This document shows, one piece after another, positions 15,240-31,024 of a stretch of DNA of 64,000 bases (its first letter is position 1; the number at the start of each line of letters is the position of its first letter). The DNA comes from SAR86 cluster bacterium AG-313-D11 (GTDB lineage: Bacteria > Pseudomonadota > Gammaproteobacteria > Magnimaribacterales > D2472): assembly GCA_003284215.1 (NCBI GenBank), contig QBVW01000007.1:1-64000 (forward strand), written 5' to 3'. The notes under the pieces were generated by a model that searched no databases, was not told where the DNA came from, and saw nothing but the letters and a program-made list of their open reading frames with translations. Both the position numbers and the translations under genes were made by a program.

Positions 15240-15947
15240 ATGAATTATCCAGCATTTGAAGTATTCGGCACGCAACATCTTGTTACTCTTTTGATATGCG
15301 CCGCTGTGATTTATGCCTATCCCAGATACTATGCAAATAAAAACCTAGCTACACAAATACAAGGTGGCAAAATTCTTGCAACTATTATGATTTTACATAT
15401 GGTGACACAGCCCATTTACGATGTGTTGCTATTTGATCTGCCTTGGAAAGGTGAATTCCCTCTGCACATGTGTGACTTTTCAATGCTTGCCATGATCGTA
15501 TACCTCTTAAAACAAAATGCTCCGAAGATTCTTTTTCATTGTGCTTATTTTTGGGGCATATGCGGCGCAACCATGGCCTTAGCAACACCAGATCTAATTT
15601 ATGGATTTCCTCATGGGGAGTACTCGCCCTTTTTCTGGGGTCACAGCTTGATTTTATTAGCAGTTTTTTATGTATTGATGGTTAATAAAGACAGGCCTGT
15701 GCTCAGCGATATTCCTATGGTCATTGGAGTCACACTGATACTTTTAATATTTGTCTACATTGCCAATCTTCTAATTGGGCCCCCAGCAAATTATTGGTAC
15801 CTTGCTGCTCGACCTGTTGAGGGCACTTTGATGGATTATTTCCCAGACCCTCCATTGCATTTAATTGGCACCATTCCATTAGCCGTTATTCTGTTTTATA
15901 TTGCTTATTTACCACTGCAAATTAAAGATAGATTTAATAAGAAATAA
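15240..15947 (+). CDS. TIGR02206/YwaF-like integral membrane protein
   Basis: The 235 residues contain about seven hydrophobic helices. The pattern FGTQHLVTLL near the N terminus, LPLHMCDFS-like residues in the third segment (here FPLHMCDFSML), and NYWYLAARP with a C-terminal PPLHLIGTIP correspond to the TIGR02206/YwaF membrane family, whose function is unknown. The preceding 125 bp contain no gene. Within them TAATATA near 15210 could serve as a -10 element. The gene is followed after 5 bp by the PLP dehydratase, so the two may be cotranscribed without an obvious functional link. Confidence 0.78.
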   Translation: MNYPAFEVFGTQHLVTLLICAAVIYAYPRYYANKNLATQIQGGKILATIMILHMVTQPIYDVLLFDLPWKGEFPLHMCDFSMLAMIVYLLKQNAPKILFHCAYFWGICGATMALATPDLIYGFPHGEYSPFFWGHSLILLAVFYVLMVNKDRPVLSDIPMVIGVTLILLIFVYIANLLIGPPANYWYLAARPVEGTLMDYFPDPPLHLIGTIPLAVILFYIAYLPLQIKDRFNKK

Positions 15948-15952
15948 TCAAT

Positions 15953-16939
15953 ATGAAACTTGAGCCCAATCTTTGGTTTGACGAGGTTGTGAAAACCTAT
16001 CATCGTATTTCACCATACATACACCACACTCAACTGGTTAGCTGTCCAAATCTCAATGAGGAATTAGATGGTCGATATCTTTTTAAACCTGAATCTCTGC
16101 AAATAACAGGCTCATTTAAAGTGAGAGGTGCCCTTTCTGCCATATCAAGACTTTCAACAAAAGAATTAAAGCGTGGTGTGATAGCCTATTCCTCTGGTAA
16201 TCATGCCCAAGGCGTTGCCCACGCAGCGAAAGTATTTAACACTCCAGCAACAGTCGTGATGCCCAAAGATGCCCCTGCTAGAAAAATTGCCAATGCAAAA
16301 GCACTTGGCGCTGAAGTAGTTTTTTATGATCGACGTACAGAAAGTAGAGAGGACATGAGCAGAGAGATAGCCAAGGAAAAGAATCTAGTATTAATTAATC
16401 CATATGACGCTCTTGAAACAATTTATGGTCAAGGGACTGCAGCCTATGAAGTGATTCATGACGCTAATAATCCTAAGCTAGACAATGCCATTATCTGTGC
16501 GGGTGGCGGTGGTCTGACAGCAGGATCTTGTATTTCTATCAAGCACATCAATCCTAGTTGTAACGTCTTTACTGCTGAGCCAGATGAGTGGAATGATCAT
16601 CAGCTATCTTTTAAAAAAAATGAGAGAGTTGCAATGGACACCAACCGGGGTGGATTATGTGATGGCCTGCTCACACCTACTCCTGGAGAAATACCCTTTG
16701 CAATCAATACGCATTTTGGTGTGCAGGGTTTATCTGCATCGGATCAATCTGTCTGTAATGCCATGAAATTTGCCTTTGATCGGTTGAATTTAAAACTTGA
16801 GCCAAGCGGTGCTGTTGCTTTGGCATGTTTGCTGGAAAACAAGGAAAAATTTAAAGGCACCAGAACATTGGTAATGCTTTCAGGTGGCAATGTTGATAAA
16901 AAAACTTTTGCTGATTGTTTAGCTCAAGCTAATCTGTAG
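15953..16939 (+). CDS. PLP-dependent threonine/serine dehydratase (or serine racemase)
   Basis: Fold-type II PLP enzyme of 328 residues. The cofactor lysine lies in GSFKVRGA (about residues 52-59), with the SSGNHAQGVA phosphate/substrate loop near 82-91 and the glycine-rich GGGGLTAG loop near 184-191. A C-terminal SGGN closes the PLP ring. It lacks the ACT-like regulatory domain of biosynthetic IlvA, which matches catabolic TdcB and eukaryote-like serine racemases; sequence alone does not separate these. It ends by overlapping the convergent channel gene by 11 bp. Confidence 0.85.
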   Translation: MKLEPNLWFDEVVKTYHRISPYIHHTQLVSCPNLNEELDGRYLFKPESLQITGSFKVRGALSAISRLSTKELKRGVIAYSSGNHAQGVAHAAKVFNTPATVVMPKDAPARKIANAKALGAEVVFYDRRTESREDMSREIAKEKNLVLINPYDALETIYGQGTAAYEVIHDANNPKLDNAIICAGGGGLTAGSCISIKHINPSCNVFTAEPDEWNDHQLSFKKNERVAMDTNRGGLCDGLLTPTPGEIPFAINTHFGVQGLSASDQSVCNAMKFAFDRLNLKLEPSGAVALACLLENKEKFKGTRTLVMLSGGNVDKKTFADCLAQANL

Positions 16940-17666
16940 ACTCTTTTTTATCTGGATCGACCAGTTCATCGATTCCGGTTCCACCCATCATCACATCGAC
17001 AATCACGCCAATGACCATGTTAAGCAAAATCACAGCATTAACAATGATAAAAGACACAAAGAAAATCCATGCATAGGGATAGACATCTATGACTTGAGCC
17101 ATGATATTTGCCCAATCATCATAGGTGGCAACCTGCACAAGAGTAATTAATGCCAAGCCAATATTGCCCCAATTTTCTGGATCAACTTTGCCAAAGAACA
17201 TGGTACCTATCGCACCCCATACATACATAAAGATGAACATGAGCAAGGCTATAAAACCTACTCTGGGAATGGTCTTAATTAATGAGTCGATAATATGACG
17301 GAAAGCTGGAACAACAGTAATGATTCGAAGCACTCGAATAATTCTTAGCAACCTAGCCACAAAGACACTTTCAACATTATTAATTGGTACCAAGGAGATG
17401 GTCACAATTAAAAAATCAAAAATGTTCCAACCATCGCTAAAGAATTTAACCAATGAGCGTTCAGAAATCATTCGAATAATAATCTCAATTAAGAAAAACA
17501 AGGTAATGGCATAGTCGAATAGATCTAAGTAAACCGTGTACTCAGGTGAGATGTCATAAGAGCTAACACCCGCATAAACAGCAGATGCCACAATCACAGC
17601 AATCACAATGCCGCTAAAGGCTTTGCTGTTTCTAACTTTTAGAAAAAAATCTACAAACGTATTCAT
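16929..17666 (-). CDS. Voltage-gated cation channel of the bacterial Nav (NaChBac) type
   Basis: One-domain, six-helix channel subunit of 245 residues that should form a tetramer in the inner membrane. S1 begins near residue 17. S4 carries four regularly spaced arginines, R105, R108, R111 and R114. The pore helix LITLVQVA leads into the filter TYDDWAN at 181-187, and S6 near 205-225 contains the conserved Asn-rich ILLNMVIGVIVD. Known Na+-selective relatives have TLESW filters. The two aspartates here resemble engineered or natural Ca2+-selective versions, so Ca2+ permeation is plausible. AGGAGCTGAC before the ATG gives a strong start. It lies 48 bp downstream of the giant FecR/cadherin gene on the same strand. 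Confidence 0.9.
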   Translation of the reverse strand: MNTFVDFFLKVRNSKAFSGIVIAVIVASAVYAGVSSYDISPEYTVYLDLFDYAITLFFLIEIIIRMISERSLVKFFSDGWNIFDFLIVTISLVPINNVESVFVARLLRIIRVLRIITVVPAFRHIIDSLIKTIPRVGFIALLMFIFMYVWGAIGTMFFGKVDPENWGNIGLALITLVQVATYDDWANIMAQVIDVYPYAWIFFVSFIIVNAVILLNMVIGVIVDVMMGGTGIDELVDPDKKESTD

Positions 17667-17714
17667 GTCAGCTCCTAATAATAAAGATATGTTGCTTTTT
17701 TACAACCAAACAAT

Positions 17715-20700
17715 TTAATCAACAAGATAAATCCCCTCAGCAAAATAAAAATCATTGGCTCCAGCCGTGCCAGTATCACCTGATTTATACAAGTTTACAT
17801 TTACCCTGCCGCCACTCTCATCGGGCGATGAGTCGCCGTATAAGGCTCCAGCCACAGATGCCCCACCCAACCAAGAATTAGCTAAGCTGTCGGTTGAATT
17901 ACCCGTGTAGGTATTATCGGTGCCGGTAATAGCAACTGAGAATGAGGCAAAGCCTGCATTATCAACAATAGGATTTTTATCATCAAAATTAGTAAAGGCT
18001 AAAGTTCCAGAATAACCGCTGCCGCCCCAATTAAAGGTTGCGGCCACATCAGCCGTGGTGGTGTATTTGTGAACATCGTAATTGGTGCCCGTTTGATTAT
18101 AGCGATAGGCCACATTCATCACCGCCGCCCCACTCATCGAGGCTGAACCGGAAGTTGGTATTTCACTTTGATCAACCACTTCACCGCCCACCCAAGTGCC
18201 CAGATGCACCGAAGCATTCTGGGTGCCAGAATTAGGTGAGACATCAACCGCGCTCATGGCCCAAAAGCCCCAAGTTGAATAAGCGGTATCTGGCATCGAA
18301 TCGTTGCCGCCTGTGTGGAATAAATCAGTATCCTCTCTATCTAATGTATTGTATGAAACCATCACTCCAGCTAGATTATTTGAACCCCCCGAAGTGCCAT
18401 CAATTTGCGCGCCATCGTCTTGAATCTCAGCTGCAAAGACTTCACTTGAAATGTAAGCTGATTTTGCTTCATCGTTGGTGGCATCACCAAACTTCAAGGT
18501 CATAGAGCCGGTATCCACGGTGCTCCAATTGGAAGTATAGTTATTTGATGGAGCAGCACTGATGGTCATCGGAGCCACCACTTGCACATCATCGTTGGTG
18601 GTATCAAACGCAAAGGTTGCAAGCGTGCTGCTTGAGCGAATCGAAGACAGCTGAGAGTTGCCTGTGCCACTGACATCAAATTCTAAAATGCCACTGAAAA
18701 ATCCGCTGTAGCCCGTAGCACTTGAGGAGTAAAAATCTGAAGATCTAAAGTCACTCAGATTATGATAAGCTCCAGAACCAACGCCAGAAGTTCTCACGTC
18801 TTGCACCACAGCAGAAACATTAAAGGAGCCAGTGCTGAAGGTATCATTGTTAGAGTTATAATTAACTCCCAAAGTCATATTACCTGACTTATAGGGATCA
18901 GAAGATGTAATCATGGCGCCGCCAGGTTGATTGGAGCTATCACCCCAAAAGCAGCCGCTATCATTGGAGGTTGCACACTCAATTGGAGAAGTACCATAGT
19001 TAATACCCAGACCATCATTATCTGCATTTGTGGCACCCTGATAAGACCAATAATGATAGCCATCCATGCCCAAGCCAGTATCTCCTGGTGAGTATCTTGT
19101 TGTATCATTTTTTCGATAATCCACATTAGATATCACCACATTCAAAAGACTCTGTTGATCATCCCGAGTGGTACTGCCTGAGGCACCGTCATAGGAATCT
19201 TTCAAAGAAATTTGCGCCCAAAGACCGGTCCCTACTCCGCTTGGATTTAGTACCTGCCACCACATGGATGTACCTTCAGGCAGATAACTGGTGCTGGTAT
19301 GAGGCATTCTATTGGTATAAATAATATTAGCTTCATTAAGAGCCATTCTCGCAAAGTCATAGTTTAGTTGGTAAGATGCCGCGCAAGCAGAAGAGGAATT
19401 ACCTGTACCTGCACAATAATTCAGACCAACATCGCCATAAGACCATACATTAGTTGGAATAAAATTAGGATAGAAATAATCATTCGTGGTTCCAGAAGCT
19501 GTAAAGTTTTCAAGCGGGATGACTGCCATGGCAATGACTCTTTTATTTCCATTGGTAAAGGATACAAAGTTTGCATCCTTATAAACTTCTCCGGCTAAGG
19601 TGACTTGATCCTCATAGAGGTTGTAGGTACTTGAGGTGGTTGAGCCATCACCAGACAAACCAACTATCCATTGCATGATCGCATAACTATTAGTCCCTTG
19701 ATACTGAGTTTGGTGATCCCAATTTATATCATTTACTCCAAGCAAAACACCATTGGTGTCACTATCGGTTTCGTTAGGTCCCCAATAACCAAAATATTTC
19801 GCCAATTTAATTCCGTTACCTGCACTATTTAAATATCTACCGCAACCCTGACATTTAATGGAAAAGCCATTTAAAGCTTCAGCTATACCACCACTTCCTG
19901 TATAAGTAGAATTGATAGGTTCAGTATCTGTGACAGCTTCTCTAGAACTAAAAGTGGCAGTACCGCCACCAATTGCAGACAAAACAGCATTTAATCTACT
20001 TTCATTTGTTTGATATTGACAACATTGTTCAGAATAAAGGACATACAAGACATTTCCAGAAGTTTCCAAAAAGCTCTCATACCCGCTGATATCTGTGCTC
20101 GTAGTGTTTATTCTTATATCTATGATCAAGCTGTATGGGCTTAAATCAGCAGGTACGCTAGTGCTCTGAACTGCATCATAGGTTTTACCTGCTGCAGTAA
20201 TTGCATCTACCCATTGATTACTATCATTGCTCCAATCCCCATCGTAACCGTTGCTACCCTCAGTATAATTCCACAATATTAGAGCTTTTCCTCCAGCAAT
20301 TGCTGAGTTAAAGCTAATATTGCTAGCTGCCTTATCAGTGGTCATGAACCAATATTCAGCGCCTTCTAGTCGTCCTGCAGTCAGGAAGTCAGCATTGGCT
20401 ATGGTGGTGGTGACTACCGTGCCTAGAGGACTGTAATACTTGCCATCGAGTGCAGAAGAATTTGGCGCAAAAGCAAATTCGCCACTACCACTAGTATCAA
20501 TAGGAAAATAATAACGCCAATTGAGTGCGGTTCCAGAATTGATTTCCACCGGAACATAGTTGTTAGACGTATCGTCCACTGAAGTGATGGCAGTTGAATT
20601 GGTGGTACCGACTTGCTCTAAAGTGTAGGCAGCGAGGCTTGATCCAGACGGACCTCGAGTTGCTGTTGCACTAAAGCCACTTCTTGAGGCTGAGTTATAG

Positions 20701-23700
20701 TCAGCAGAATAGCGCAAGACTGCCGATTCAAGTTCTTCAACGTTACCTACATTAACCGTAAAGGCATCGGTGGTGGTGTTACCTCCTGCGGTGGCAGTCA
20801 AAGTTAAGCTGTAGCTTTTAGCCGTCTCAAAATCCAAGGTTGCATTGGTGGTGACATTACCAGAGCTGTCAACGGCAAAATTACTGCTGCCGGTTCCACT
20901 GAGTGAGTAAGAGACAGTTTCGCTATCTGGATTGGTAATGCTTGAGCTACCAACAGTAGTGCCTGAACTGGAGGATTCTGCCAAAGCTGCGCCGCTGTTG
21001 GCCAAAGTCACTGCTAAGGTATTAATTTTTAAATCGTTCACATTCACCGTGAAATTTTGCGTCACTGTATTGGTGCCATCGGTTGCAGTAAGAGTTAATG
21101 AATATGATGTTGTGGTTTCATAATCCAAACTTGCTGCTGTGGTAATGGTTCCATCTGAAGAGACTGCAAATTTATCACTGCCGGTGCCAGAAAGGGTATA
21201 AGTCACACTACCACTGCCCTCGGTGGTGGTTGTTGTTGTTGTAATGCTTGATCCCGAACTAGCATTTTCATCAATACTAATTGATGAACTTGCTAGGGCT
21301 ATAGACAACTCAACCACATCAGCAACACTAATATTGATAATGTTCGATATAGTATTGGTTCCATCGCTAGCAGTTAATGTTAGTGAGTACGAGGTGCTTG
21401 TTTCATAATCTAAAGAACTGACTAAAGTAATATTTCCAGCACTATCGACCGCAAAATTTTCACTACCGGACCCACTTAAGGCATAAGTAATGGTTTGTGA
21501 TTCAGGATCGGAGGCTGATGCAGTTGCAATCGTAGTTCCAGCAGCAGTGTTTTCTGCAAAAGAAGAAGCCGCCAATGAGCTTGAAAGACTTGGAGCTTCA
21601 TTGACATCGCTAATACTGATGGCGATAGTGTTAGTTATAGTATTAACTCCATCAGAAGCGCTCAGTGTTAAAGTGTAAGAACTGGCTGTTTCGTAATCCA
21701 AGCCAGCTATCAAAGTTACGTTCCCCGAACTATCTACTGCAAAATTTTCACTGCCAGTTCCACTTAAGGAATAGGTAATAGCTTGTGATTCAGGATCTGA
21801 TGCTGAAGCATTTGCAATGGTCGTTCCCGTTGAAATGTTCTCTGCGAAGGAAGAAGCTGCCAATGTATTCGAAAGGCTTGGTGCTTCATTGACATCATCG
21901 ACTGTAATAGTTAAGTCAGAAGAAGTTGTGTTCACTCCATCAGATGCATTTAAGGTAAGCGTATAGCTTGTTGCAGTTTCATAATCCAGTGTATTGACCA
22001 GTGAAATATTCCCAGCACTGTCCACGCTAAAGTTTTCACTGCCTGCTCCCGAAAGACTATAGGTAATAGAATTACCTTCAGGATCTGTTGCTGAGGCTGT
22101 ACCTATGTTTATACCGGTCAGACTGTCTTCAGCAAAACTAGTTGCTGAGGTGCTTGCAGTTAAAATAGCAGGCTCATCAATATCAATAACACTAAAATTA
22201 ATTTCATAGACAGTCTCATTAACTCCGTCACTGGCAGTCAGTGTCAGCGCATAACTGGTAGTGGTCTCATAATCCAATTCAGCTTGCAAGGAAATGTTCC
22301 CATTTGCATCCACGCTAAAGTTTTCACTACCCTCTCCAGAAAGAGTGAATGAAATATCTCCACCTTCAGGATCTATGGCTGTGCTTTCGAGAATCGCTGA
22401 TTGCAAATCAATATTTTCAGCAAAGGAATCAGCAAGTAAAGTAGATGTTAATACAATAGGCTCATCAATGTTTGTTACATCCAAAAGCACTTGTATTTCA
22501 GAAATATCAGCATTTTCAGATTCAATGGTCACAGTAAATGAAAGGGTAGTTTGAGTCTCATAATCAAGCGCACTTATAAGATTAATTGTTAAAGTTTCTT
22601 CATCAAATTCCACGAGTTCGGCATCATCACCGGAAATGACAATTGTGTAAGCTAATTCTCCTGGATTAATAAAAACCAATGGGGTGAGGGTTTCATTGAC
22701 CAGATTTTCGTTAATGGATTCAATGGACTCACCTGCACTAACTTGAAAAATAGGAGCAACTTCAACGGTTGTCTCTTGAGTAGATTCTGCGACCTCCTCT
22801 GCAACTTCTCCGGTTGGATCTTCATTGGCATCATCGGCCTCGACGGTTTCAAGCTCAACAGCAGCCTCATAATCATCAGCTGTTCCCAAATCTTCTGGCT
22901 CCACATCTGAAGAGGCATCTGATACTCCCGATGAGTCTAGCAAACTTTCATCTACTTCAATGTCGGTTGAATCGCCAGCATCATCGCTTGCAACTTCTGC
23001 CTCAGTTTCAGCTTCTGTTGATTCGGGGGCAGTCTCCTCGGCCGGCGTCTCTTCGCTTACAGTTTCTTCACTAGGAGCAGCCTCTTCTTCTTGAGTTTCC
23101 TCCCCAGGAGTTTCTTCGGCAGCAGGCTCATCTTCTGAAATTTCCTCTTCAGCAGCAGATTCTTCTTCTGGTGCTTCTTCGGGTGCCTCTAATTCTTCCT
23201 GCAATGCATCTAAACTCTCTTCAGTAACTGCAACAGGCTCACTTGGCTCAGAATCTTCACTTTCAACAGAGACTGAAAAACCTGGTTCAGTAACCGTCGT
23301 AGCAAAATCTGGGGAGCATTGATCCCCAAAAGAATCTAAATCTACACAATTAGGAGTAACCGTCATCTCTGTGCCATATAGAAAGGTTGCATTCGTTTGC
23401 GGGCCTGTGGTCTGCACAATTCCGATTCCACCCCTAATACCAACCGTGGCAGAATTTGTTCGAATTAAAGCGGGTTGTTTTTTTGTAACTTTACCGCCAA
23501 CTATTCTAAGCAAGCCACGCGCTGTTACCTCGAGTGAGCCTTCGGCAGTCTCAGGGTTATAAATAAATTTATCCAAAACAACACTGGAGTTAGGTCCAAT
23601 CGAAAATGCAGTGCCATCAAGCAACAACATTTGCGCCCTCCCGATGCCATCAGTTTCAATCGTATGATTTTGAATAATCTCATAACCCGCATCGATAAGT

Positions 23701-23840
23701 TTACGCTCTTGTTCAAGAGTTAAATCGGTTGTATTTTTATTAACCGCAGATGCAACTCCTATTTGTTCTTGGGTCTGACCATCAATAGCAAAAAGACTGA
23801 CTGCTAAATAAACTGAAAGAAAATTTTGAATAAATTTCAT
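17715..23840 (-). CDS. Giant secreted FecR-domain / cadherin-repeat protein, putative type XI cargo
   Basis: About 2040 residues. I chose ATG 23840, two bases after the upstream stop; an ATG five codons earlier (23855) is also possible. Order: a signal peptide without lipobox; a FecR-like domain (about residues 30-150, ending TVGIRGGIG); a very acidic Glu/Ala/Pro linker (about 195-360); one divergent and six clear cadherin-like repeats (about 360-1040) with LDYET and DVNEAP motifs typical of Ca2+ binding; and then about 1000 residues of unrecognised sequence with an alpha/beta stretch near 1185-1260. The last 200 residues look like a TbpB-type beta-barrel (LYGDSSPDESGG near the end). The adjacent TPR/barrel protein is the likely exporter. 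An adhesin or surface sensor is inferred; no enzyme activity is claimed. Confidence 0.85.
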   Translation of the reverse strand: MKFIQNFLSVYLAVSLFAIDGQTQEQIGVASAVNKNTTDLTLEQERKLIDAGYEIIQNHTIETDGIGRAQMLLLDGTAFSIGPNSSVVLDKFIYNPETAEGSLEVTARGLLRIVGGKVTKKQPALIRTNSATVGIRGGIGIVQTTGPQTNATFLYGTEMTVTPNCVDLDSFGDQCSPDFATTVTEPGFSVSVESEDSEPSEPVAVTEESLDALQEELEAPEEAPEEESAAEEEISEDEPAAEETPGEETQEEEAAPSEETVSEETPAEETAPESTEAETEAEVASDDAGDSTDIEVDESLLDSSGVSDASSDVEPEDLGTADDYEAAVELETVEADDANEDPTGEVAEEVAESTQETTVEVAPIFQVSAGESIESINENLVNETLTPLVFINPGELAYTIVISGDDAELVEFDEETLTINLISALDYETQTTLSFTVTIESENADISEIQVLLDVTNIDEPIVLTSTLLADSFAENIDLQSAILESTAIDPEGGDISFTLSGEGSENFSVDANGNISLQAELDYETTTSYALTLTASDGVNETVYEINFSVIDIDEPAILTASTSATSFAEDSLTGINIGTASATDPEGNSITYSLSGAGSENFSVDSAGNISLVNTLDYETATSYTLTLNASDGVNTTSSDLTITVDDVNEAPSLSNTLAASSFAENISTGTTIANASASDPESQAITYSLSGTGSENFAVDSSGNVTLIAGLDYETASSYTLTLSASDGVNTITNTIAISISDVNEAPSLSSSLAASSFAENTAAGTTIATASASDPESQTITYALSGSGSENFAVDSAGNITLVSSLDYETSTSYSLTLTASDGTNTISNIINISVADVVELSIALASSSISIDENASSGSSITTTTTTTEGSGSVTYTLSGTGSDKFAVSSDGTITTAASLDYETTTSYSLTLTATDGTNTVTQNFTVNVNDLKINTLAVTLANSGAALAESSSSGTTVGSSSITNPDSETVSYSLSGTGSSNFAVDSSGNVTTNATLDFETAKSYSLTLTATAGGNTTTDAFTVNVGNVEELESAVLRYSADYNSASRSGFSATATRGPSGSSLAAYTLEQVGTTNSTAITSVDDTSNNYVPVEINSGTALNWRYYFPIDTSGSGEFAFAPNSSALDGKYYSPLGTVVTTTIANADFLTAGRLEGAEYWFMTTDKAASNISFNSAIAGGKALILWNYTEGSNGYDGDWSNDSNQWVDAITAAGKTYDAVQSTSVPADLSPYSLIIDIRINTTSTDISGYESFLETSGNVLYVLYSEQCCQYQTNESRLNAVLSAIGGGTATFSSREAVTDTEPINSTYTGSGGIAEALNGFSIKCQGCGRYLNSAGNGIKLAKYFGYWGPNETDSDTNGVLLGVNDINWDHQTQYQGTNSYAIMQWIVGLSGDGSTTSSTYNLYEDQVTLAGEVYKDANFVSFTNGNKRVIAMAVIPLENFTASGTTNDYFYPNFIPTNVWSYGDVGLNYCAGTGNSSSACAASYQLNYDFARMALNEANIIYTNRMPHTSTSYLPEGTSMWWQVLNPSGVGTGLWAQISLKDSYDGASGSTTRDDQQSLLNVVISNVDYRKNDTTRYSPGDTGLGMDGYHYWSYQGATNADNDGLGINYGTSPIECATSNDSGCFWGDSSNQPGGAMITSSDPYKSGNMTLGVNYNSNNDTFSTGSFNVSAVVQDVRTSGVGSGAYHNLSDFRSSDFYSSSATGYSGFFSGILEFDVSGTGNSQLSSIRSSSTLATFAFDTTNDDVQVVAPMTISAAPSNNYTSNWSTVDTGSMTLKFGDATNDEAKSAYISSEVFAAEIQDDGAQIDGTSGGSNNLAGVMVSYNTLDREDTDLFHTGGNDSMPDTAYSTWGFWAMSAVDVSPNSGTQNASVHLGTWVGGEVVDQSEIPTSGSASMSGAAVMNVAYRYNQTGTNYDVHKYTTTADVAATFNWGGSGYSGTLAFTNFDDKNPIVDNAGFASFSVAITGTDNTYTGNSTDSLANSWLGGASVAGALYGDSSPDESGGRVNVNLYKSGDTGTAGANDFYFAEGIYLVD
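20720..22465 (-). repeat. Six tandem cadherin-like repeats inside the giant gene
   Basis: Units of about 94-98 codons recur six times. Each carries SFAEN-like, LSGTGSENFAVDS, LDYET and SYTLTLTASDG elements, and most are joined by DVNEAP or close variants. The repeats are alike in protein but clearly diverged in DNA, so they are old or under recombination only in part. A seventh, weaker unit precedes them at about 22465-22755. Repeat number may vary among strains. Confidence 0.85.
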
Positions 23841-23842
23841 GA

Positions 23843-25171
23843 TTATTTGAAACATTGATAGTTTATTTGTGCAGAAAAATTATTAGCCCTGCGTTTATAA
23901 ATACTGATGGTGCTTCTGGAGTCATTGAAGATCAAACCAAGATTTAACGACCAACAAGCTCCTATGGATTTCAGCATATTGAATCGAAGACTTTCCATTT
24001 GATCATGTCTTGCACCAAAAAGAGGATAGTTCTTATCATGCGATTTATCTTGATAGCTGTACTTTGATGAAAATTGCCAATTTTCACCCAGGGGCTGAGA
24101 ATAACTAAACTCTAAACCATAGTTTTCATAAAACTCATAGTCTGTATTTGCACGATAATTTTCTAAAATGATCTTATAGCCATATAAGGCTTGAGGGCCA
24201 GACCAAACGTAACTCTGCCCAAAACTTATTCCGTTTATGCGGCCATTTTTTTGTCTTCCTGACCTAAAAATTTTCTCATCTCTGTAATATGAAAAGAGCA
24301 TGGAGGAACCATTATCTAATTGACCGCTGTAATCAAGGGAAATACGGCCACTGCGTAAAATTTCTTGTCGGTTTAACACAACTCGCAGTAAATTAATGTT
24401 CGGCGCAAAGACTGGATCCTCTAAATTAAAGAAAGAAAAGAAATTCTCATCTAAGTTAAAGTTTCTGCGAACTGAAATTACGTTACTTTGTACATCGAAT
24501 TGAGTGTAAGTATCGAATCGATCTGCGCCATAACTAAAAAAGTATTGAATGTTATCGCCTCTTGGATGATTTAAGTCCTGATCAATGCTTAAAGAATAGT
24601 TATATAGAGACGATCTATCGCTTTGTCTTTTGCTCTCTTGATCAACCTCTAATAAAAAATCACCAATCTCAATAAAATCGGCATTGATGCCTGAATTTCC
24701 ATTCGTGGTTCGTTTGAAGCCAATACTAAGGTTTTGTTGCCATTGAAAAGGCTCCTCAGCAGAGACAATTGCTTCAAGGAATTGATCAACCTTAGCTTCA
24801 ACTTCTGGGGGTGGATTAAACTCCTTAACACTTTTTAAATAATTGTTAGCCAAAGCAAAAGCGCCTAGACGGAAATATAAAACTCCAAGTTCTAACCTGA
24901 TTCTAGGTAATTCTGAATCATAAATAAGCATCTGCTCAAAGACACCTATGGCGCCCTCTAAATCTCCAACTACAATGGATAAATTTGCATATTCAAATAA
25001 CAAAGAAAGGTTTGTTGGATCTTTGAAAAGCTTTTGAAAGGTTTGCTCTTTTTTTTTCTCGAGAACCTCTAATGCTTGGGGATCGGATATAGTTGGAACA
25101 ACATTTTGTGCTAAAGAATCCATACATAAGAGAGCAAAAAGCATGGATAAAAATAGCTTGGATAATTTCAT
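23843..25171 (-). CDS. TPR plus outer-membrane beta-barrel protein, DUF560/SLAM-like
   Basis: The 442-residue precursor has a signal peptide (to about residue 21), then a TPR region (about 40-145). This region includes LRLELG-type and NPPPEVEAKVDQFLEAI segments (here RIRLELGVLYFRLGAF) characteristic of the DUF560 N-terminal domain. Residues from about 160 to the end alternate polar and aromatic/hydrophobic positions with many Tyr, Phe, Ser and Asn, as expected for a barrel of about 14 strands. DUF560 proteins (SLAMs, type XI secretion) move barrel-bearing cargo to the cell surface. The next gene 2 bp downstream encodes a giant protein with a TbpB-like end, which fits. An unrelated TPR-porin is the main alternative. 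Confidence 0.7.
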   Translation of the reverse strand: MKLSKLFLSMLFALLCMDSLAQNVVPTISDPQALEVLEKKKEQTFQKLFKDPTNLSLLFEYANLSIVVGDLEGAIGVFEQMLIYDSELPRIRLELGVLYFRLGAFALANNYLKSVKEFNPPPEVEAKVDQFLEAIVSAEEPFQWQQNLSIGFKRTTNGNSGINADFIEIGDFLLEVDQESKRQSDRSSLYNYSLSIDQDLNHPRGDNIQYFFSYGADRFDTYTQFDVQSNVISVRRNFNLDENFFSFFNLEDPVFAPNINLLRVVLNRQEILRSGRISLDYSGQLDNGSSMLFSYYRDEKIFRSGRQKNGRINGISFGQSYVWSGPQALYGYKIILENYRANTDYEFYENYGLEFSYSQPLGENWQFSSKYSYQDKSHDKNYPLFGARHDQMESLRFNMLKSIGACWSLNLGLIFNDSRSTISIYKRRANNFSAQINYQCFK

Positions 25172-25177
25172 AAGTTT

Positions 25178-25200
25178 TTTAGTGACATTTAGTCACTAAA
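25178..25200. promoter_or_regulatory. Palindromic operator, candidate TetR binding site
   Basis: TTTAGTGAC and GTCACTAAA form a perfect 9-bp inverted repeat around a 5-base centre (ATTTA). It starts 7 bp upstream of the DUF560-like gene and lies in the 115-bp divergent region shared with the TetR-family gene. Size and symmetry match operators of TetR-family repressors. Its position over the leader of the minus-strand genes suggests repression of the DUF560/giant-protein pair. Confidence 0.65.
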
Positions 25201-25222
25201 TTTGTTGTGTATTTAAACATAA

Positions 25223-25241
25223 AAATGACAAAATATCATTT
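25223..25241. promoter_or_regulatory. Second, weaker inverted repeat in the same divergent region
   Basis: AAATGA and TCATTT are separated by 7 bases. The arms are AT-rich and short, so chance is possible, but the repeat lies where a -35/-10 region for the divergent TetR operon or the minus-strand operon would be expected. It could be a second regulator site. Confidence 0.3.
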
Positions 25242-25286
25242 GAAAGGTGTCAATACGCGCATTCTCTCCCCTAGAGGTATAATCTT

Positions 25287-25889
25287 ATGATGAAAAAATC
25301 TGAGCAAACAAAAGCCAAACTTGTTAACGCAGTTGTAAACCTCATTAATAAGGGTAAGAAAATTTCTGTATCAAGCATTTCCAAAGAATCCAAAACTGCT
25401 TACGGAACCTTTTACAGATACTTCAATAATCTTGATGAGATTCATGAGGCTGCAATTATTAACGTTGTCTTGGAGGTAGCTGAAAGTCTTGATAAACAGC
25501 TAGCAAAAGAATCATCAAATCTTTTTAAGATTTATTATGCTTGGTACGTTGCCATTGATTTGTATAAAGATACCTATACAGCTAACTGGCTTATTGATCA
25601 CCCTGCCAGCATTAATGAAGCATGGATTCTCACTCACCCTATTACCTTTGGCTGGTTGCAAGAAGCAATCAAGCAAAAAGAAGAGCTGGGATTAAATAAT
25701 GAAAATTTAAGACACTTTAAGATGGCTTCATCTTATATCCACTGGACCTATCAAAATGCTTTGCGAGAATTGCTTAGAGGTAGAAAAACAATTCATGTCT
25801 ATCTAGATTTAATGAATTCAATTAATTTTCTAGATCTACCCAAAAAAACTCATAAAAAATATCTTAAAAGAGTCGCTGACTCTCTTTAA
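25287..25889 (+). CDS. TetR-family transcriptional regulator
   Basis: The 200 residues begin with a basic helix-turn-helix domain: helices over residues 3-50 with SVSSISKESKTAYGTFYRYFNNLDEI, the classical TetR recognition helix ending in FYRYF. The C-terminal ligand-binding part is helical and not similar to a named subfamily. GAGG at 25274-25277 serves the ATG at 25287; a second ATG follows at once. The gene opens a plus-strand operon with the cyclase (18 bp apart), DUF481 and MscS genes, and faces the DUF560/giant-protein pair across a near-perfect palindrome. Control of both directions is inferred. Confidence 0.85.
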   Translation: MMKKSEQTKAKLVNAVVNLINKGKKISVSSISKESKTAYGTFYRYFNNLDEIHEAAIINVVLEVAESLDKQLAKESSNLFKIYYAWYVAIDLYKDTYTANWLIDHPASINEAWILTHPITFGWLQEAIKQKEELGLNNENLRHFKMASSYIHWTYQNALRELLRGRKTIHVYLDLMNSINFLDLPKKTHKKYLKRVADSL

Positions 25890-25907
25890 GCCTCACTAAA
25901 ACTTAGC

Positions 25908-28091
25908 GTGAAGAAAAATTTAAAGCAGCTATCTCGATACGGCCTTTTAATTTTTGCAATCTTGGTAAGTTTTTTACCGATCCTTAATCCTTTTCAAATT
26001 TTTAGCAGCCTACAAAATTATTCTTTTGATACCTTCCAAAGAATTTTACCAAGAGAGATCTACACTGAAGACCCTGTGATCATCATTGATATTGATGATC
26101 GTTCACTTACAGAAATTGGCCAGTGGCCCTGGCCTAGAAATCAATTAGCAAAATTAACAGATCAAGCTTATGCAGCAGCTGCATTAGGATTTGATATCGT
26201 CTTTGCTGAAGCAGACAGAACCAATCCTGAAAATTTCATTTTCAGCTACCCTCTTACCGAAGCATCAAAAAAAGAACTATCAAAATTACCGAGCAATGAT
26301 GAGCTTTTTGCTCAAGCCATCGTTAATCATGGAACCGTTGTTCTAGGTCAGGCTTTAAATAATAAAAATAACATTAAGCCTTACCAGGCTAAATATGGCT
26401 TGGTAACTCAAGGTGATAATCCCAAGCAATTTATTAGAAATTATCTGGGTGCACAAAATAATATCAAACTGCTGGATGACTCAGCTTCAGGAATTGGTTC
26501 AATGAGCATAGGTAATAATGATGCAATTGTTCGCCAATTACCTACCTTTGAAAGAATTGATGATCAATTGGTGCCTAGCCTTGCTCTGGAAATGACAAGA
26601 GTGGCTGTGGGAGCCTCAACTTTTCAGATTAAGTCCTCTAATGCCTCAAGCGAGGAAGCCTATGGCGCTCAAACAGGCATCAACAATATCAAATTGGGCC
26701 CTCTCACTATTCCAACAACACCTGAAGGAAATGTATGGGTTTACTTTGCCCCTACAAAAAATATTCCTACAGTCTCTGCAGGGGATGTGATCTCAGGATT
26801 AATACCGCCTGAATTTTTTGAGGGCAAGGTTGCACTTGTTGGAACATCTGCTGCCGGCCTGCTCGATCTTAGATCTACCCCTACAGAAAAAAATATTCCT
26901 GGGGTCACAATCATTGCTCAATTTATTCAGCAAATTTTTGCTAATGAATTTTTACAAAGGCCAGATTGGCTTTTTGGAGCGGAGTTCCTTGCAGGTCTTA
27001 TATTAGCTGTACTAATTACTCTAAGCATTCAAGCCCTAGGACCTATCGGTGGATTGAGTGTTTTGATCCTAGGTTCTGGCGGAATCACGGGTTCAAGTTA
27101 TTATTTTTTTAAATCAAAATTATTTTTAGTTGATCCAATCTCTCCTTTAATCATTGCATTGAGTGTTTATGTTGCCGTTACCTTTTTCAATTTTCTGTTT
27201 ACTGAGCTAGAACGAAGCAGAGTAAGAGGCGCCTTTGCACAATATCTTTCCCCAGAAATGGTTAATCGCTTGGCAGAATCTAGCGAATCATTGGTTCTTG
27301 GTGGAGAGAGAAAAGAAATGACCTTCCTGTTTTCAGATATTAGAGGTTTCACTAAAATTTCTGAACAATACAAGGATGATCCAGAAGCTTTAACACAGCT
27401 CATCAATCAATTACTCACGGTGTTATCTAATGCAATTTTAGAGCATGGTGGCACCATAGATAAATACATGGGTGATTGCATCATGGCATTTTGGAATGCA
27501 CCGACCGACCAAGAAGATCATCGTCAATTAGCTATTAAAGCAGCCCATACAATGAATGAGGCTTTAGATGAATTCAATCTTGAGACAGATGGAGGTTTAG
27601 ACTTTAAGCTTGAAATAGGAATTGGTATCAATTCTGGAAACTGCATTGTCGGCAACATGGGTTCTGATAAACGTTTTGATTATACCGTCCTCGGTGATGC
27701 TGTGAACTTAGCATCTAGACTTGAAAGTCAGTCATCTAATTATGGCTTACATATGATCGTAGGCGAAAATACTTACATACATGATTGTGATTTTACAATT
27801 ATAGAAATTGATAAAATTGCAGTTAAAGGAAAATCTTCTGCTGAAATAATTTATACCTGTTTTAAGCCAGAAATGAAATTTACAGCAGGGTTCTTACAAA
27901 AACATCAAACTTTCTTGAATGAATATAGAGCTCAAAACTGGGATAGTGCCAATTTATTAATCGATGAATTAATATCTTCCTCTGATGCGCTTGAACTATA
28001 CTACAAGCACATGAGAGCAAGAATTGCAGAATATATTTTAAACCCGCCAGCCATTGATTGGGAAGGAGTCTATATTGCTAAAAATAAGTAA
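25908..28091 (+). CDS. CHASE2-domain class III adenylate/guanylate cyclase
   Basis: A 727-residue inner-membrane sensor that makes a cyclic nucleotide. One N-terminal helix (about 11-28) is followed by a periplasmic CHASE2 domain (about 35-350, with DIDDRSLTEIGQWPWPR), three helices (about 355-430) and a cytoplasmic cyclase domain (about 465-650). Metal-site aspartates are D477 (FSDIRGFT) and D523 (YMGD). The base-selecting pair K519/T593 is of adenylate-cyclase type, and N600/R604 are the transition-state residues, so cAMP is the expected product. Start is GTG. CHASE2 senses an unknown extracytoplasmic cue; the giant FecR-domain protein nearby could be part of that cue. Confidence 0.92.
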   Translation: MKKNLKQLSRYGLLIFAILVSFLPILNPFQIFSSLQNYSFDTFQRILPREIYTEDPVIIIDIDDRSLTEIGQWPWPRNQLAKLTDQAYAAAALGFDIVFAEADRTNPENFIFSYPLTEASKKELSKLPSNDELFAQAIVNHGTVVLGQALNNKNNIKPYQAKYGLVTQGDNPKQFIRNYLGAQNNIKLLDDSASGIGSMSIGNNDAIVRQLPTFERIDDQLVPSLALEMTRVAVGASTFQIKSSNASSEEAYGAQTGINNIKLGPLTIPTTPEGNVWVYFAPTKNIPTVSAGDVISGLIPPEFFEGKVALVGTSAAGLLDLRSTPTEKNIPGVTIIAQFIQQIFANEFLQRPDWLFGAEFLAGLILAVLITLSIQALGPIGGLSVLILGSGGITGSSYYFFKSKLFLVDPISPLIIALSVYVAVTFFNFLFTELERSRVRGAFAQYLSPEMVNRLAESSESLVLGGERKEMTFLFSDIRGFTKISEQYKDDPEALTQLINQLLTVLSNAILEHGGTIDKYMGDCIMAFWNAPTDQEDHRQLAIKAAHTMNEALDEFNLETDGGLDFKLEIGIGINSGNCIVGNMGSDKRFDYTVLGDAVNLASRLESQSSNYGLHMIVGENTYIHDCDFTIIEIDKIAVKGKSSAEIIYTCFKPEMKFTAGFLQKHQTFLNEYRAQNWDSANLLIDELISSSDALELYYKHMRARIAEYILNPPAIDWEGVYIAKNK

Positions 28092-28830
28092 TTTTCAATA
28101 CCTCACAGTCTTTGTTATGTGCTTAAGCTCTTTTAATCTTATGAGCCAGGCCATAGTCAATATTGAAGATTTGAGACGCGAAGGTGAAGTTGGATTCTTT
28201 ACTAATATCAGCGCCAATCTCAATGCATCGCGAGGCAATAGAGATAGAGATTTCTACTCTGTTCAACTAAGGTTTGATAATAACTCTAAAGATACGGAAT
28301 CTTTTTTGATTCTCCAGCAAAGTGAACGTAAGTCAAATGATAAGCTGATGGATGAAGCAACCTTCATGCATGGCAGGTATATTTTAGTCGGTGAAGATGC
28401 TGTTAACTGGGAAGTTTTTATTCAATACAGTGAAAATCCTTTTAGAAATTATAAAAAAAGATCAGTTATCGGTGGCGGTCTTAGATATGAGCTATCAGAC
28501 TCAGCTCGCTTTGGAGCTGGTTTGCTCAATGAGGATGAGACCGATCTGAGTGGTCAATCTAAAACCACAGAGCGTTTCGGTTTTTATCTCCATAATTCTT
28601 TAGAGCTAGCAGAAAATATTGCCTTAAAACCTACAATATATTTTCAACCTAGCATTGATGATTTTGAGAATGACTATAAAGCAAGTATCATCTTAGCCTT
28701 AGATTTTAAAGTAAATGAAAATTTTAAGATAACGATGCAATATTCATCTTTTCATGACTCGGATCCACCCATGTTGGCTGAGAAAACAGATGAATCAATC
28801 TCAACCATGTTTTCATACAATTTAAATTAA
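28075..28830 (+). CDS. DUF481-like outer-membrane beta-barrel protein
   Basis: I chose TTG 28075, because GGAAGGAG lies 6 bases upstream and the protein then begins with a signal peptide (hydrophobic to about residue 20, Met-Ser-Gln-Ala). This start overlaps the cyclase gene by 17 bp and gives 251 residues. The mature part shows repeated amphipathic strands (for example FYSVQLRFDN, GFYLHNSLEL) and ends in FSYNLN, typical of a small outer-membrane barrel and similar in style to the DUF481/YdiY family. Its role in the operon between the cyclase and MscS is unknown; a channel or structural role is possible. Confidence 0.65.
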   Translation: MLKISNFQYLTVFVMCLSSFNLMSQAIVNIEDLRREGEVGFFTNISANLNASRGNRDRDFYSVQLRFDNNSKDTESFLILQQSERKSNDKLMDEATFMHGRYILVGEDAVNWEVFIQYSENPFRNYKKRSVIGGGLRYELSDSARFGAGLLNEDETDLSGQSKTTERFGFYLHNSLELAENIALKPTIYFQPSIDDFENDYKASIILALDFKVNENFKITMQYSSFHDSDPPMLAEKTDESISTMFSYNLN

Positions 28831-28832
28831 TT

Positions 28833-29999
28833 ATGGAAGGATTTATAGAAATTTTTACAAATGTCTGGGAAGAAGGCTTTTTAGGCATTGGTATAACAGA
28901 GATTATTGTCTCTATGTTGATATTTATAGCTGGAGCTATAAGTAGAGCCTTTTTTGTAGGCAGAGTTTTGAATTGGCTCGAAAAGCTTACTGAGCATACA
29001 GATTCTGAAGTGGACGATGTATTGCTTGAGTCACTCAAGAAGCCACTTGGATATATCCCCATGACGGTTGCTCTCTACTTTATTGCTGTTTACCTCCCTC
29101 TTTCAGGCATGGCAGATATTTTTGCTACTAATCTAGTCAAAGCCATGATTGCTTTTACAATATTTAGTGCATTATCAAATAGTATTGCTCCAATTTTTCA
29201 GGCTTTTACCTCAAGTGCTGTATTAACCAAATCCATGACCATGTGGCTTGAAAGAGCTGCGAGGATAATTATATGGATTATAGGTCTTGGTATTATTTTA
29301 GATATCTTTGGCATTCAAATTGGCCCACTGGTCGCTGGTCTTGGTTTATTCTCAGTCGCTGTTGCGCTTGGTGCTCAAGATTTATTTAAAAATCTAATCT
29401 CTGGATTATTGATCATTGGAGAAAATAGGTTTCAACCGGGCGATCGAATCGAGGTGCCGGGTTCACTTCATGGCATGGTTGAAGACATAGGTTTTAGATC
29501 AACCCTTATCAGAATGTTTGATACATCTCCCATGCTAGTTCCAAACAAAGATCTTTCAGATGTAAAAGTTATCAATCATGGCAACATGAAATATAGAAGA
29601 ATTAGCTGGTCATTAAATCTGATTTACTCTACTACCCAAGAACAATTAGCAAAAATTTGTGAAGAAATTACAAACTTTATTACCACCTCTGAAGAATTTA
29701 TAAATAATCCTGATCAAGAATCCTTCGCTCGAACTGAAGAACTAGCATCAAGCTCCATTGATGTGAGAGTGCTATGTTACACAGACCCAGTGGGCTTAAC
29801 AGATTTTTCTAAAATTAAGCAAAACCTAATTTTTGAAGTGATTAAAATCGTTAGAAATAATGGCTCTGAATTTGCCTACCCTTCAACTTCAGTCTATGTA
29901 GAAAATACAGATCCTTTGAATGTTGCAGACTACTCAACCGATGGCTTGCAAGAGAAAGATATCTCTCATCAGGCTGCGCCTGATAAGGGCGATGACTAA
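28833..29999 (+). CDS. Small-conductance mechanosensitive channel, MscS family
   Basis: The 388 residues contain four N-terminal helices, a pore-lining helix with the Gly/Ala pattern GLGLFSVAVALGAQDLFKNL (about 168-187), and the MscS beta domain with FQPGDRIEVPG and the downstream VPNKDLSDVKVINHG motif, followed by a C-terminal cytoplasmic domain. The product should open under membrane tension and release solutes on osmotic downshift. It starts 2 bp after the DUF481-like gene and overlaps the convergent cyclic-nucleotide-gated channel by 4 bp. There is no cyclic-nucleotide domain in this protein itself. Confidence 0.92.
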   Translation: MEGFIEIFTNVWEEGFLGIGITEIIVSMLIFIAGAISRAFFVGRVLNWLEKLTEHTDSEVDDVLLESLKKPLGYIPMTVALYFIAVYLPLSGMADIFATNLVKAMIAFTIFSALSNSIAPIFQAFTSSAVLTKSMTMWLERAARIIIWIIGLGIILDIFGIQIGPLVAGLGLFSVAVALGAQDLFKNLISGLLIIGENRFQPGDRIEVPGSLHGMVEDIGFRSTLIRMFDTSPMLVPNKDLSDVKVINHGNMKYRRISWSLNLIYSTTQEQLAKICEEITNFITTSEEFINNPDQESFARTEELASSSIDVRVLCYTDPVGLTDFSKIKQNLIFEVIKIVRNNGSEFAYPSTSVYVENTDPLNVADYSTDGLQEKDISHQAAPDKGDD

Positions 30000-31024
30000 T
30001 CTGCAGTTCTTTGCGAGACGCTAAGCTCTAATTCTTTGAACAGACCAGGGTGCTCTTCAGTAAGCTCTGCCAAGTCCAACTTTGTTAATTCAAGTAATTT
30101 TGTATCGTCAGCAGCGGTTATGGTTGCATTTCTTGGCGCATTGCCAAGTAAGCCCATTTCTCCAAAATAATCTCCTGCTACTAAATAGACCGGCTGATCA
30201 ATTTCTACTTTAACCTTTCCATATTCAATGATAAACATTGAATCAGCCTCCTCGCCCTTAGAGAAAATAGTCTCATGCTCACTTATCAAAACAACCTGTA
30301 GCTTTTCATTAATTTTTCCAACTGCTCCAATTGGAAGCTCTTGAAATAGCGGCACTGATGCAATAGCTTCAAAGCTCACGAGAAAATTCTTTTTTTGAAT
30401 CTCTTCATAGTAGGCAGATGCAAGAATGGCTGCAGGTAAGGCAAACATCCCTATCCCAACCAACATCGTAAAGCTTGCTAGCAGCTTACCAAGGTCTGTC
30501 ATAGGCACAACATCGCCATAACCCACAGTAGTTAAAGTCGCTATGCCCCACCACATGGTAGACGGAATGCTACCAAAAACCTCTGGCTGGACCGAGGATT
30601 CTAAAAAATATATAAATGTAGAAACTACCAATAAAATTGAAATCACCATGATTTGTGAACCTAGCAAGGCATTGCGTTGTTTAATGATTGTCTTAATAAG
30701 AGTATTGGTTGGTAAGAGAAACCTTGATTGACTAAAAATATCAAAAAGTCTAAATAATCTAAGGATTCTTAAATCATAGATGGAAAAAAATATTTGATTA
30801 ATAAGAACCAGTCCATCAATCGAAAGAAGAAACGAAAGTTTTCGTTCATTGAAAAGCCTTAAAATAAACTCAATTCCAAAAATACTTATTGAAATTAAAT
30901 ACGACACTTTAAATGCTGGTATTTCGAGCACAAAATAACCCGCACTAGAAACTATTTGATGCAAGATATTAATAGCAATCACTACTCCAAAAAACTTATT
31001 CAAGGTATCTAGTATTTTTTTCAT
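29996..31024 (-). CDS. Cyclic-nucleotide-gated potassium channel (MloK1-like)
   Basis: The 342 residues have the six-helix layout: an S4-like helix with R86, R89 and R92, a pore helix, the K+ selectivity filter TTVGYGD at 165-171, S6, and a C-terminal cyclic-nucleotide-binding domain (about 224-335). The phosphate-binding cassette is intact (FGEMGLLG from 287, Arg298, Ala300, Thr301). Length and order resemble MloK1 of Mesorhizobium, gated by cAMP. It lies tail-to-tail with the cyclase operon, so the nearby CHASE2 enzyme may supply its ligand; this coupling is inferred. No separate regulator is seen. Confidence 0.92.
   Translation of the reverse strand: MKKILDTLNKFFGVVIAINILHQIVSSAGYFVLEIPAFKVSYLISISIFGIEFILRLFNERKLSFLLSIDGLVLINQIFFSIYDLRILRLFRLFDIFSQSRFLLPTNTLIKTIIKQRNALLGSQIMVISILLVVSTFIYFLESSVQPEVFGSIPSTMWWGIATLTTVGYGDVVPMTDLGKLLASFTMLVGIGMFALPAAILASAYYEEIQKKNFLVSFEAIASVPLFQELPIGAVGKINEKLQVVLISEHETIFSKGEEADSMFIIEYGKVKVEIDQPVYLVAGDYFGEMGLLGNAPRNATITAADDTKLLELTKLDLAELTEEHPGLFKELELSVSQRTAD

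Follow-up and report, generated by a model that had tools for sequence, protein, structure and literature searches.

A CHASE2 adenylate cyclase and an MloK1-like K+ channel paired in SAR86 genomes: a candidate cAMP circuit with electrical output

Described relatives and the SAR86 locus

MloK1 and SthK, bacterial K+ channels gated by cyclic AMP (cAMP), serve as standard models in structural work, and our literature search found no paper giving channels of this type a partner enzyme or a physiological input. We describe here a gene cluster of SAR86 bacteria in which an MloK1-like K+ channel gene is paired with the gene for a CHASE2 adenylate cyclase; the cluster lies in a 64,000-nucleotide stretch (the window) of contig QBVW01000007.1 from SAR86 cluster bacterium AG-313-D11 (assembly GCA_003284215.1). 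Parts of this arrangement have been described elsewhere. In Campylobacterota a CHASE2 adenylate cyclase gene is clustered with FecR, TPR and phosphodiesterase genes (PMC9239204); in Sinorhizobium meliloti the CHASE2 cyclase gene cyaD1 stands beside the FecR gene SMc02177, together with SMc02178 and the CRP-type regulator Clr, which is the output (PMC5498481); and PAC-K is a man-made pair of an adenylyl cyclase and a cAMP-gated K+ channel, functional in cells as an optogenetic silencer (PMC6218482).

The SAR86 locus shares with the Campylobacterota cluster its adjacent CHASE2 class III cyclase, FecR and TPR genes, but its output gene is a K+ channel, and it adds a giant cadherin-bearing FecR protein and a voltage-gated channel in the operon. 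It also differs in its lack of a phosphodiesterase gene: none is found among the genes at 16929-31024, though no dedicated phosphodiesterase search was made. As in Sinorhizobium, the cyclase lies beside a FecR gene; unlike there, it has no CRP-type partner. PAC-K has the design that we propose for SAR86, a cyclase and a cAMP-gated K+ channel setting membrane voltage, but it is man-made and takes light as its input, whereas the SAR86 pair is native and has a CHASE2 domain. Because the arrangement of CHASE2 cyclase, FecR and TPR genes is already known in other bacteria, only the channel output is unusual, and not the whole module, which the preliminary description of this DNA took for an unfamiliar kind. 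Our literature search returned nothing on SAR86 with adenylate cyclase and nothing relevant on SAR86 with potassium channels.

The preliminary description had placed eight gene families in a 14 kb block, and Pfam searches and open reading frame (ORF) calls located all of them at 16929-31024, with some labels corrected. The host genome (1.30 Mb, 75% complete; contig of 77.7 kb) is assigned to the SAR86 order, and relatives bearing the same cluster are named SAR86. Three families of the order retain the cluster although its flanks differ from one family to another, and its conservation is therefore far beyond chance.

Pairing of cyclase and K+ channel

We surveyed 203 genomes of the SAR86 order, mostly incomplete metagenome-assembled and single-amplified genomes, with co-occurrence counts that ignore kinship; Fisher values calculated from these counts serve as description only. 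A class III cyclase is present in 48 of them, one in each, and 47 are genuine CHASE2 adenylate cyclases once G588 is dropped; a protein with a cyclic-nucleotide-binding (cNMP-binding) domain is present in 51. For 44 cyclases a cNMP gene lies 1.3-2.9 kb away, a truncated K+ channel at a contig end in G507 raises the pairing to 45/47, and in the remaining two cyclase genomes (G001, G488) the contig stops before the channel position. The K+ channel occurs without the cyclase solely at contig ends (G004, G468). The pairing is without a real counter-example among the 203 genomes: the genes are adjacent wherever contigs allow, and the scattered loci that would have refuted the preliminary description were nowhere seen.

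Two candidate cases were set aside. The G588 cyclase is soluble and lies on a small contig with genes unlike those of SAR86, including xanthine-dehydrogenase-type genes (L196:2945-5254), and is likely a contaminant. In G479 the cyclase, barrel and channel genes are all in pieces, which might be read as co-decay; because neighbouring genes also appear split (ORF lengths compared by eye), an assembly error is more likely.

Natural absences link the two genes further. In three sister genomes (G005, G010, G013) the cyclase block and the K+ channel are both missing and the MscS gene between them is kept; some 105 bp separate the starts of the voltage-gated channel gene and of MscS there, compared with 11.2 kb in the window, where the interval holds the FecR giant, the barrel, TetR, cyclase and DUF481 genes. 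Two separate sites flanking a retained gene are therefore empty or filled together, whether by loss or by gain. In a tree of the neighbouring SLC13 gene, G005 is nested among module carriers with strong support; parsimony gives four gain or loss changes on this tree, of which at least two are forced. In family f1 and genus g15, MscS itself is one of the genes within the cluster, codirectional with the cyclase operon and 2 nt from DUF481. Since it is kept when the module is absent, and is missing in the f2 loci and genus g16, it is a resident neighbour and not, as the preliminary description had it, a member of the module.

The cyclase combines a CHASE2 domain with the catalytic residues of a class IIIb adenylate cyclase. 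Residues D477, K519, D523, T593, N600 and R604 are invariant in 13/13 aligned relatives from three families; these are the two metal-binding aspartates, the Lys/Thr pair that recognises the purine and the Asn/Arg pair of the transition state, the full class IIIb adenylate set. The Lys/Thr pair pointed out in the preliminary description is thus of the adenylate type and all catalytic residues are kept. The nearest solved structures in a PDB comparison are adenylate cyclases, CyaB among them. From its invariant residues the enzyme probably produces cAMP, and it is the sole class III cyclase detected in the host genome.

The K+ channel has a six-helix pore, a TxGYGD filter and a C-terminal cNMP-binding domain with its Glu and Arg contacts, and its best PDB match, over S5 to the cyclic-nucleotide-binding domain, is MloK1 (E 2e-44), as the preliminary label implied. 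The TTVGYGD filter and binding-site residues E289 and R298 are invariant among aligned SAR86 channels and are the same as those of MloK1 and SthK; the SAR86 channels differ from these in having three invariant arginines in the S4 region. These residues are consistent with opening of the channel by cAMP. The gene is convergent with the cyclase operon and encodes the sole cNMP-binding protein detected in the host genome. Because no cAMP-type CRP was found in module genomes, the channel is, within the domains searched, their only recognisable cyclic-nucleotide receptor. Among the other cNMP proteins examined, those of G012, G036 and G572 are FNR-type and have N-terminal cysteines, that of G024 is CRP-like and that of G047 belongs to a 963-aa transporter-like fusion; two more (G568, G569), known by length only, resemble the FNR-type in length. 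G572 is the sole module genome with a second cNMP protein.

Outside SAR86 the pairing is nearly absent, and we read the SAR86 arrangement as an already described cAMP front end with an ion channel as its output. In a phylum sample of 398 genomes, 24 besides the host had a strong match to the K+ channel; 20 of these loci were examined, of the alphaproteobacterial type, and class III cyclases are missing from the roughly 9 kb around the channel in all 20. Among 69 non-SAR86 CHASE2-cyclase loci, many of them clipped by contig ends, FecR- or barrel-like genes lie near 18, and an MloK1-like K+ channel near one (L102). At that locus, in a Hyphomicrobiales metagenome-assembled genome (L102:3636-10345), genes for a CHASE2 cyclase, an MBL-fold hydrolase, an MloK1-like K+ channel and a further cNMP-binding protein follow one another; cyclase and channel may have been paired independently here, alongside a candidate phosphodiesterase. 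DUF481, MscS, channel, barrel and cyclase genes also occur, in a different order, on a contig binned as Woeseiaceae (L075:5402-11977), which may reflect horizontal transfer or misbinning.

Surface genes and the voltage-gated channel

FecR proteins were found in 20 of 60 genomes, and all 20 bear the cyclase, including those where FecR is unlinked to it; together with the distribution of the voltage-gated channel given below, this upholds the earlier placement of both genes in the module. The FecR giant may be a cargo of type 11 secretion, whose cargo proteins end in an 8-strand barrel; its C-terminal 900 residues have no Pfam match, and their predicted model reaches a mean confidence score (pLDDT) of only 41. 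Giant copy number varies: G021 has two tandem FecR-cadherin giants (L027:13903-19998), and G043 has two FecR genes 7 kb apart (L046:476-6970).

The TPR-barrel gene overlaps the FecR gene by 13 nt and is conserved beside the cyclase. Its AlphaFold model (pLDDT 86) comprises TPR and a 14-strand barrel resembling solved 14-strand barrels (Z 20-22); the fold search returned generic porins and exopolysaccharide exporters, and no Slam entry appeared among the matches listed, which decides nothing. The predicted fold agrees with the earlier label "DUF560-like barrel", but the family match does not: PF04575 (DUF560) scores E 0.1 and 12.5 bits against a cut-off of 22, with the best relative at E 0.0026. 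The resemblance to Type 11 secretion systems (Slam/DUF560) lies in the periplasmic TPR with a 14-strand barrel and in a gene adjoining that of a large secreted protein; the SAR86 protein differs in falling below the PF04575 cut-off and matching TPR_Slam weakly, and the Type 11 secretion papers that we found mention neither FecR nor cyclases. The DUF481 gene overlaps or abuts that of the cyclase and is retained without it in G019 and G034.

The voltage-gated channel has the single Ion_trans domain and S4 arginine ladder (four arginines) of a canonical bacterial Nav channel, but not the TLESW-type Na+ filter, so the earlier term "Nav-type" describes its fold and not its filter. Its closest bacterial structure is NavRh (4dxw, E 2e-60), and it has the same fold and length as NavRh and the one-domain bacterial channels CavMr and NavPp. 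Its filter, ATYDDWA, places Asp at two selectivity positions, where typical Nav channels have TLESW, CavMr TLEGWVD and NavPp TLEDWTD, and TYDDW recurs in 27 of the 28 SAR86 channel relatives examined. Asp at both positions is associated with either selectivity for Ca2+ or block by it (PMC10120453), and NavPp cautions that block is possible (PMC7041947). This filter suggests a channel for which Ca2+, permeant or blocking, matters rather than Na+.

Orthologues of the voltage-gated channel, defined by at least 60% identity, are present in 42/47 cyclase genomes of the order and in 15/156 others, four of which (G004, G012, G015, G468) bear module fragments at contig ends. The gene lies 48 nt past the FecR gene in the window, and this distance is 42-48 nt for most loci of f1 and two of f2, 44-183 nt within genus g15 and 243-564 nt for three other loci; in genus g16, where FecR is located elsewhere, it lies 32 nt past the barrel gene. 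This spacing is operon-like in all three families, from which we infer co-transcription with the surface genes. The spacing to FecR or barrel genes and the distribution among genomes link the channel to the surface genes and not to the cyclase as such, and it can exist without both. One genome that lacks the module has a DUF481 gene next to the gene for a distantly related voltage-gated channel (39% identity, filter TMSSW; L059:9813-10535), and channel and DUF481 may be an older pair.

A possible circuit and its alternatives

We suggest that the cluster encodes a self-contained cAMP circuit with an electrical output, a reading to which we give a probability of about 0.6. The TPR-barrel, the FecR-cadherin giant and DUF481 would act on the periplasmic CHASE2 domain; the class IIIb cyclase, to judge by its invariant residues, would then synthesise cAMP; and cAMP would open the adjoining K+ channel, whose co-occurrence with the cyclase is observed, bringing the membrane voltage closer to the K+ equilibrium potential. 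This shift would be sensed by the voltage-gated channel, which would admit Ca2+ or be regulated by it, and no CRP-type transcription factor would be needed. With about 10 mM K+ in seawater and an assumed internal concentration of a few hundred mM, K+ is at equilibrium near -90 mV; if the cell rested at -150 mV, K+ would flow in and depolarise it, possibly opening the voltage-gated channel. The only cyclase detected sits next to the only classical cAMP-binding protein detected, beside genes for surface proteins and a calcium-channel-like protein, which suggests that a signal at the cell surface acts directly on the electrical state of the cell rather than on its gene expression. More tentatively, and short of what we would call probable, this may be a native electrical pathway, running from surface signal to cAMP from the sole cyclase, to the K+ channel only, to voltage and to a co-expressed Ca2+-type channel, with no CRP-type branch. 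The genomic association names a candidate input enzyme for a cAMP-gated K+ channel, in a clade abundant in the surface ocean. If the channel is the only cAMP target, the messenger would act directly on the membrane and not on genes, as it does in the sensory cells of animals, and would do so with a genome of about 1.3 Mb.

Several points weigh against this circuit. The direction of the voltage change is uncertain, as the K+ equilibrium in seawater may lie positive of the resting potential, and the K+ channel gene forms a separate transcription unit that converges on the cyclase operon. At least five genomes (G005, G010, G013, G019, G034) keep the voltage-gated channel although they lack the module, and it therefore also has another role. 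The singleness of cyclase and receptor holds for the classes covered by the searches: class III cyclases, class I cyclases (none in 18 module genomes) and receptors with a cNMP domain. The co-occurrence counts, finally, come from related and mostly incomplete genomes.

The locus could instead serve osmotic or K+ homeostasis, an envelope-stress cue raising cAMP so that the K+ channel adjusts turgor with MscS and voltage is a side effect. The channel does carry an osmolyte, and MscS has the position in the f1 and g15 clusters described above, but this gene is kept by genomes that lack the module, and the clusters of f2 and of genus g16 do without it, and we consider the explanation unlikely. Somewhat further from expectation is an ordinary CHASE2-FecR-TPR cAMP adhesion system, in which cAMP has several outputs, the K+ channel among them, and the voltage-gated channel just rides along in the surface operon: such front ends are known in Campylobacterota and Sinorhizobium, the giant resembles an adhesin and the voltage-gated channel survives without the module. 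In module genomes, however, no other cNMP receptor was found bar the FNR-type protein of G572, and the joint absence of cyclase and channel at two sites also speaks against it; we regard it as improbable. Neutral linkage of ancestral neighbours, kept together without functional coupling, draws on the tendency of streamlined genomes to preserve gene order and on the inflation of counts by kinship, but it is very improbable given that the flanks vary between families while the cluster persists, that repeated gain or loss is required, that channel and cyclase are jointly missing on either side of a gene that is kept, and that the FecR and voltage-gated genes follow the cyclase even when unlinked.

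Table 1. Genes of the SAR86 cluster in window coordinates.
Feature	Position	Strand	Evidence
Voltage-gated cation channel, NavRh/T-type-Cav-like, 245 aa; last gene of the surface operon	16929..17666	-	Pfam Ion_trans E 2e-41
FecR-cadherin protein, 2046 aa, secreted; candidate surface/periplasmic input	17715..23855	-	Pfam FecR and six cadherin repeats
TPR and 14-strand outer-membrane barrel protein	23843..25171	-	TPR Pfam; AlphaFold pLDDT 86
TetR-like regulator, divergent, upstream of cyclase	25287..25889	+	weak NCBIfam BetI/FadR
CHASE2 and class IIIb adenylate cyclase	25908..28091	+	Pfam E 2e-49 (CHASE2), 5e-24 (cyclase)
DUF481 outer-membrane protein	28054..28830	+	Pfam DUF481 E 1e-14
MscS channel, resident neighbour	28833..29999	+	Pfam
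MloK1-like cyclic-nucleotide-gated K+ channel, Ion channel and cNMP_binding	29996..31024	-	Pfam; PDB best match MloK1

The gene that the preliminary description called TetR is present, in most f1 and some f2 loci though not in family f3, but the label draws on NCBIfam matches (E 1e-4) far below the cut-off. A promoter scan of the locus gave no more sites than shuffled sequence. Next to the cluster, at window positions 15240-15947, lies a gene for a TMEM164-related integral membrane acyltransferase-like protein (TIGR02206), a resident neighbour conserved in relatives.

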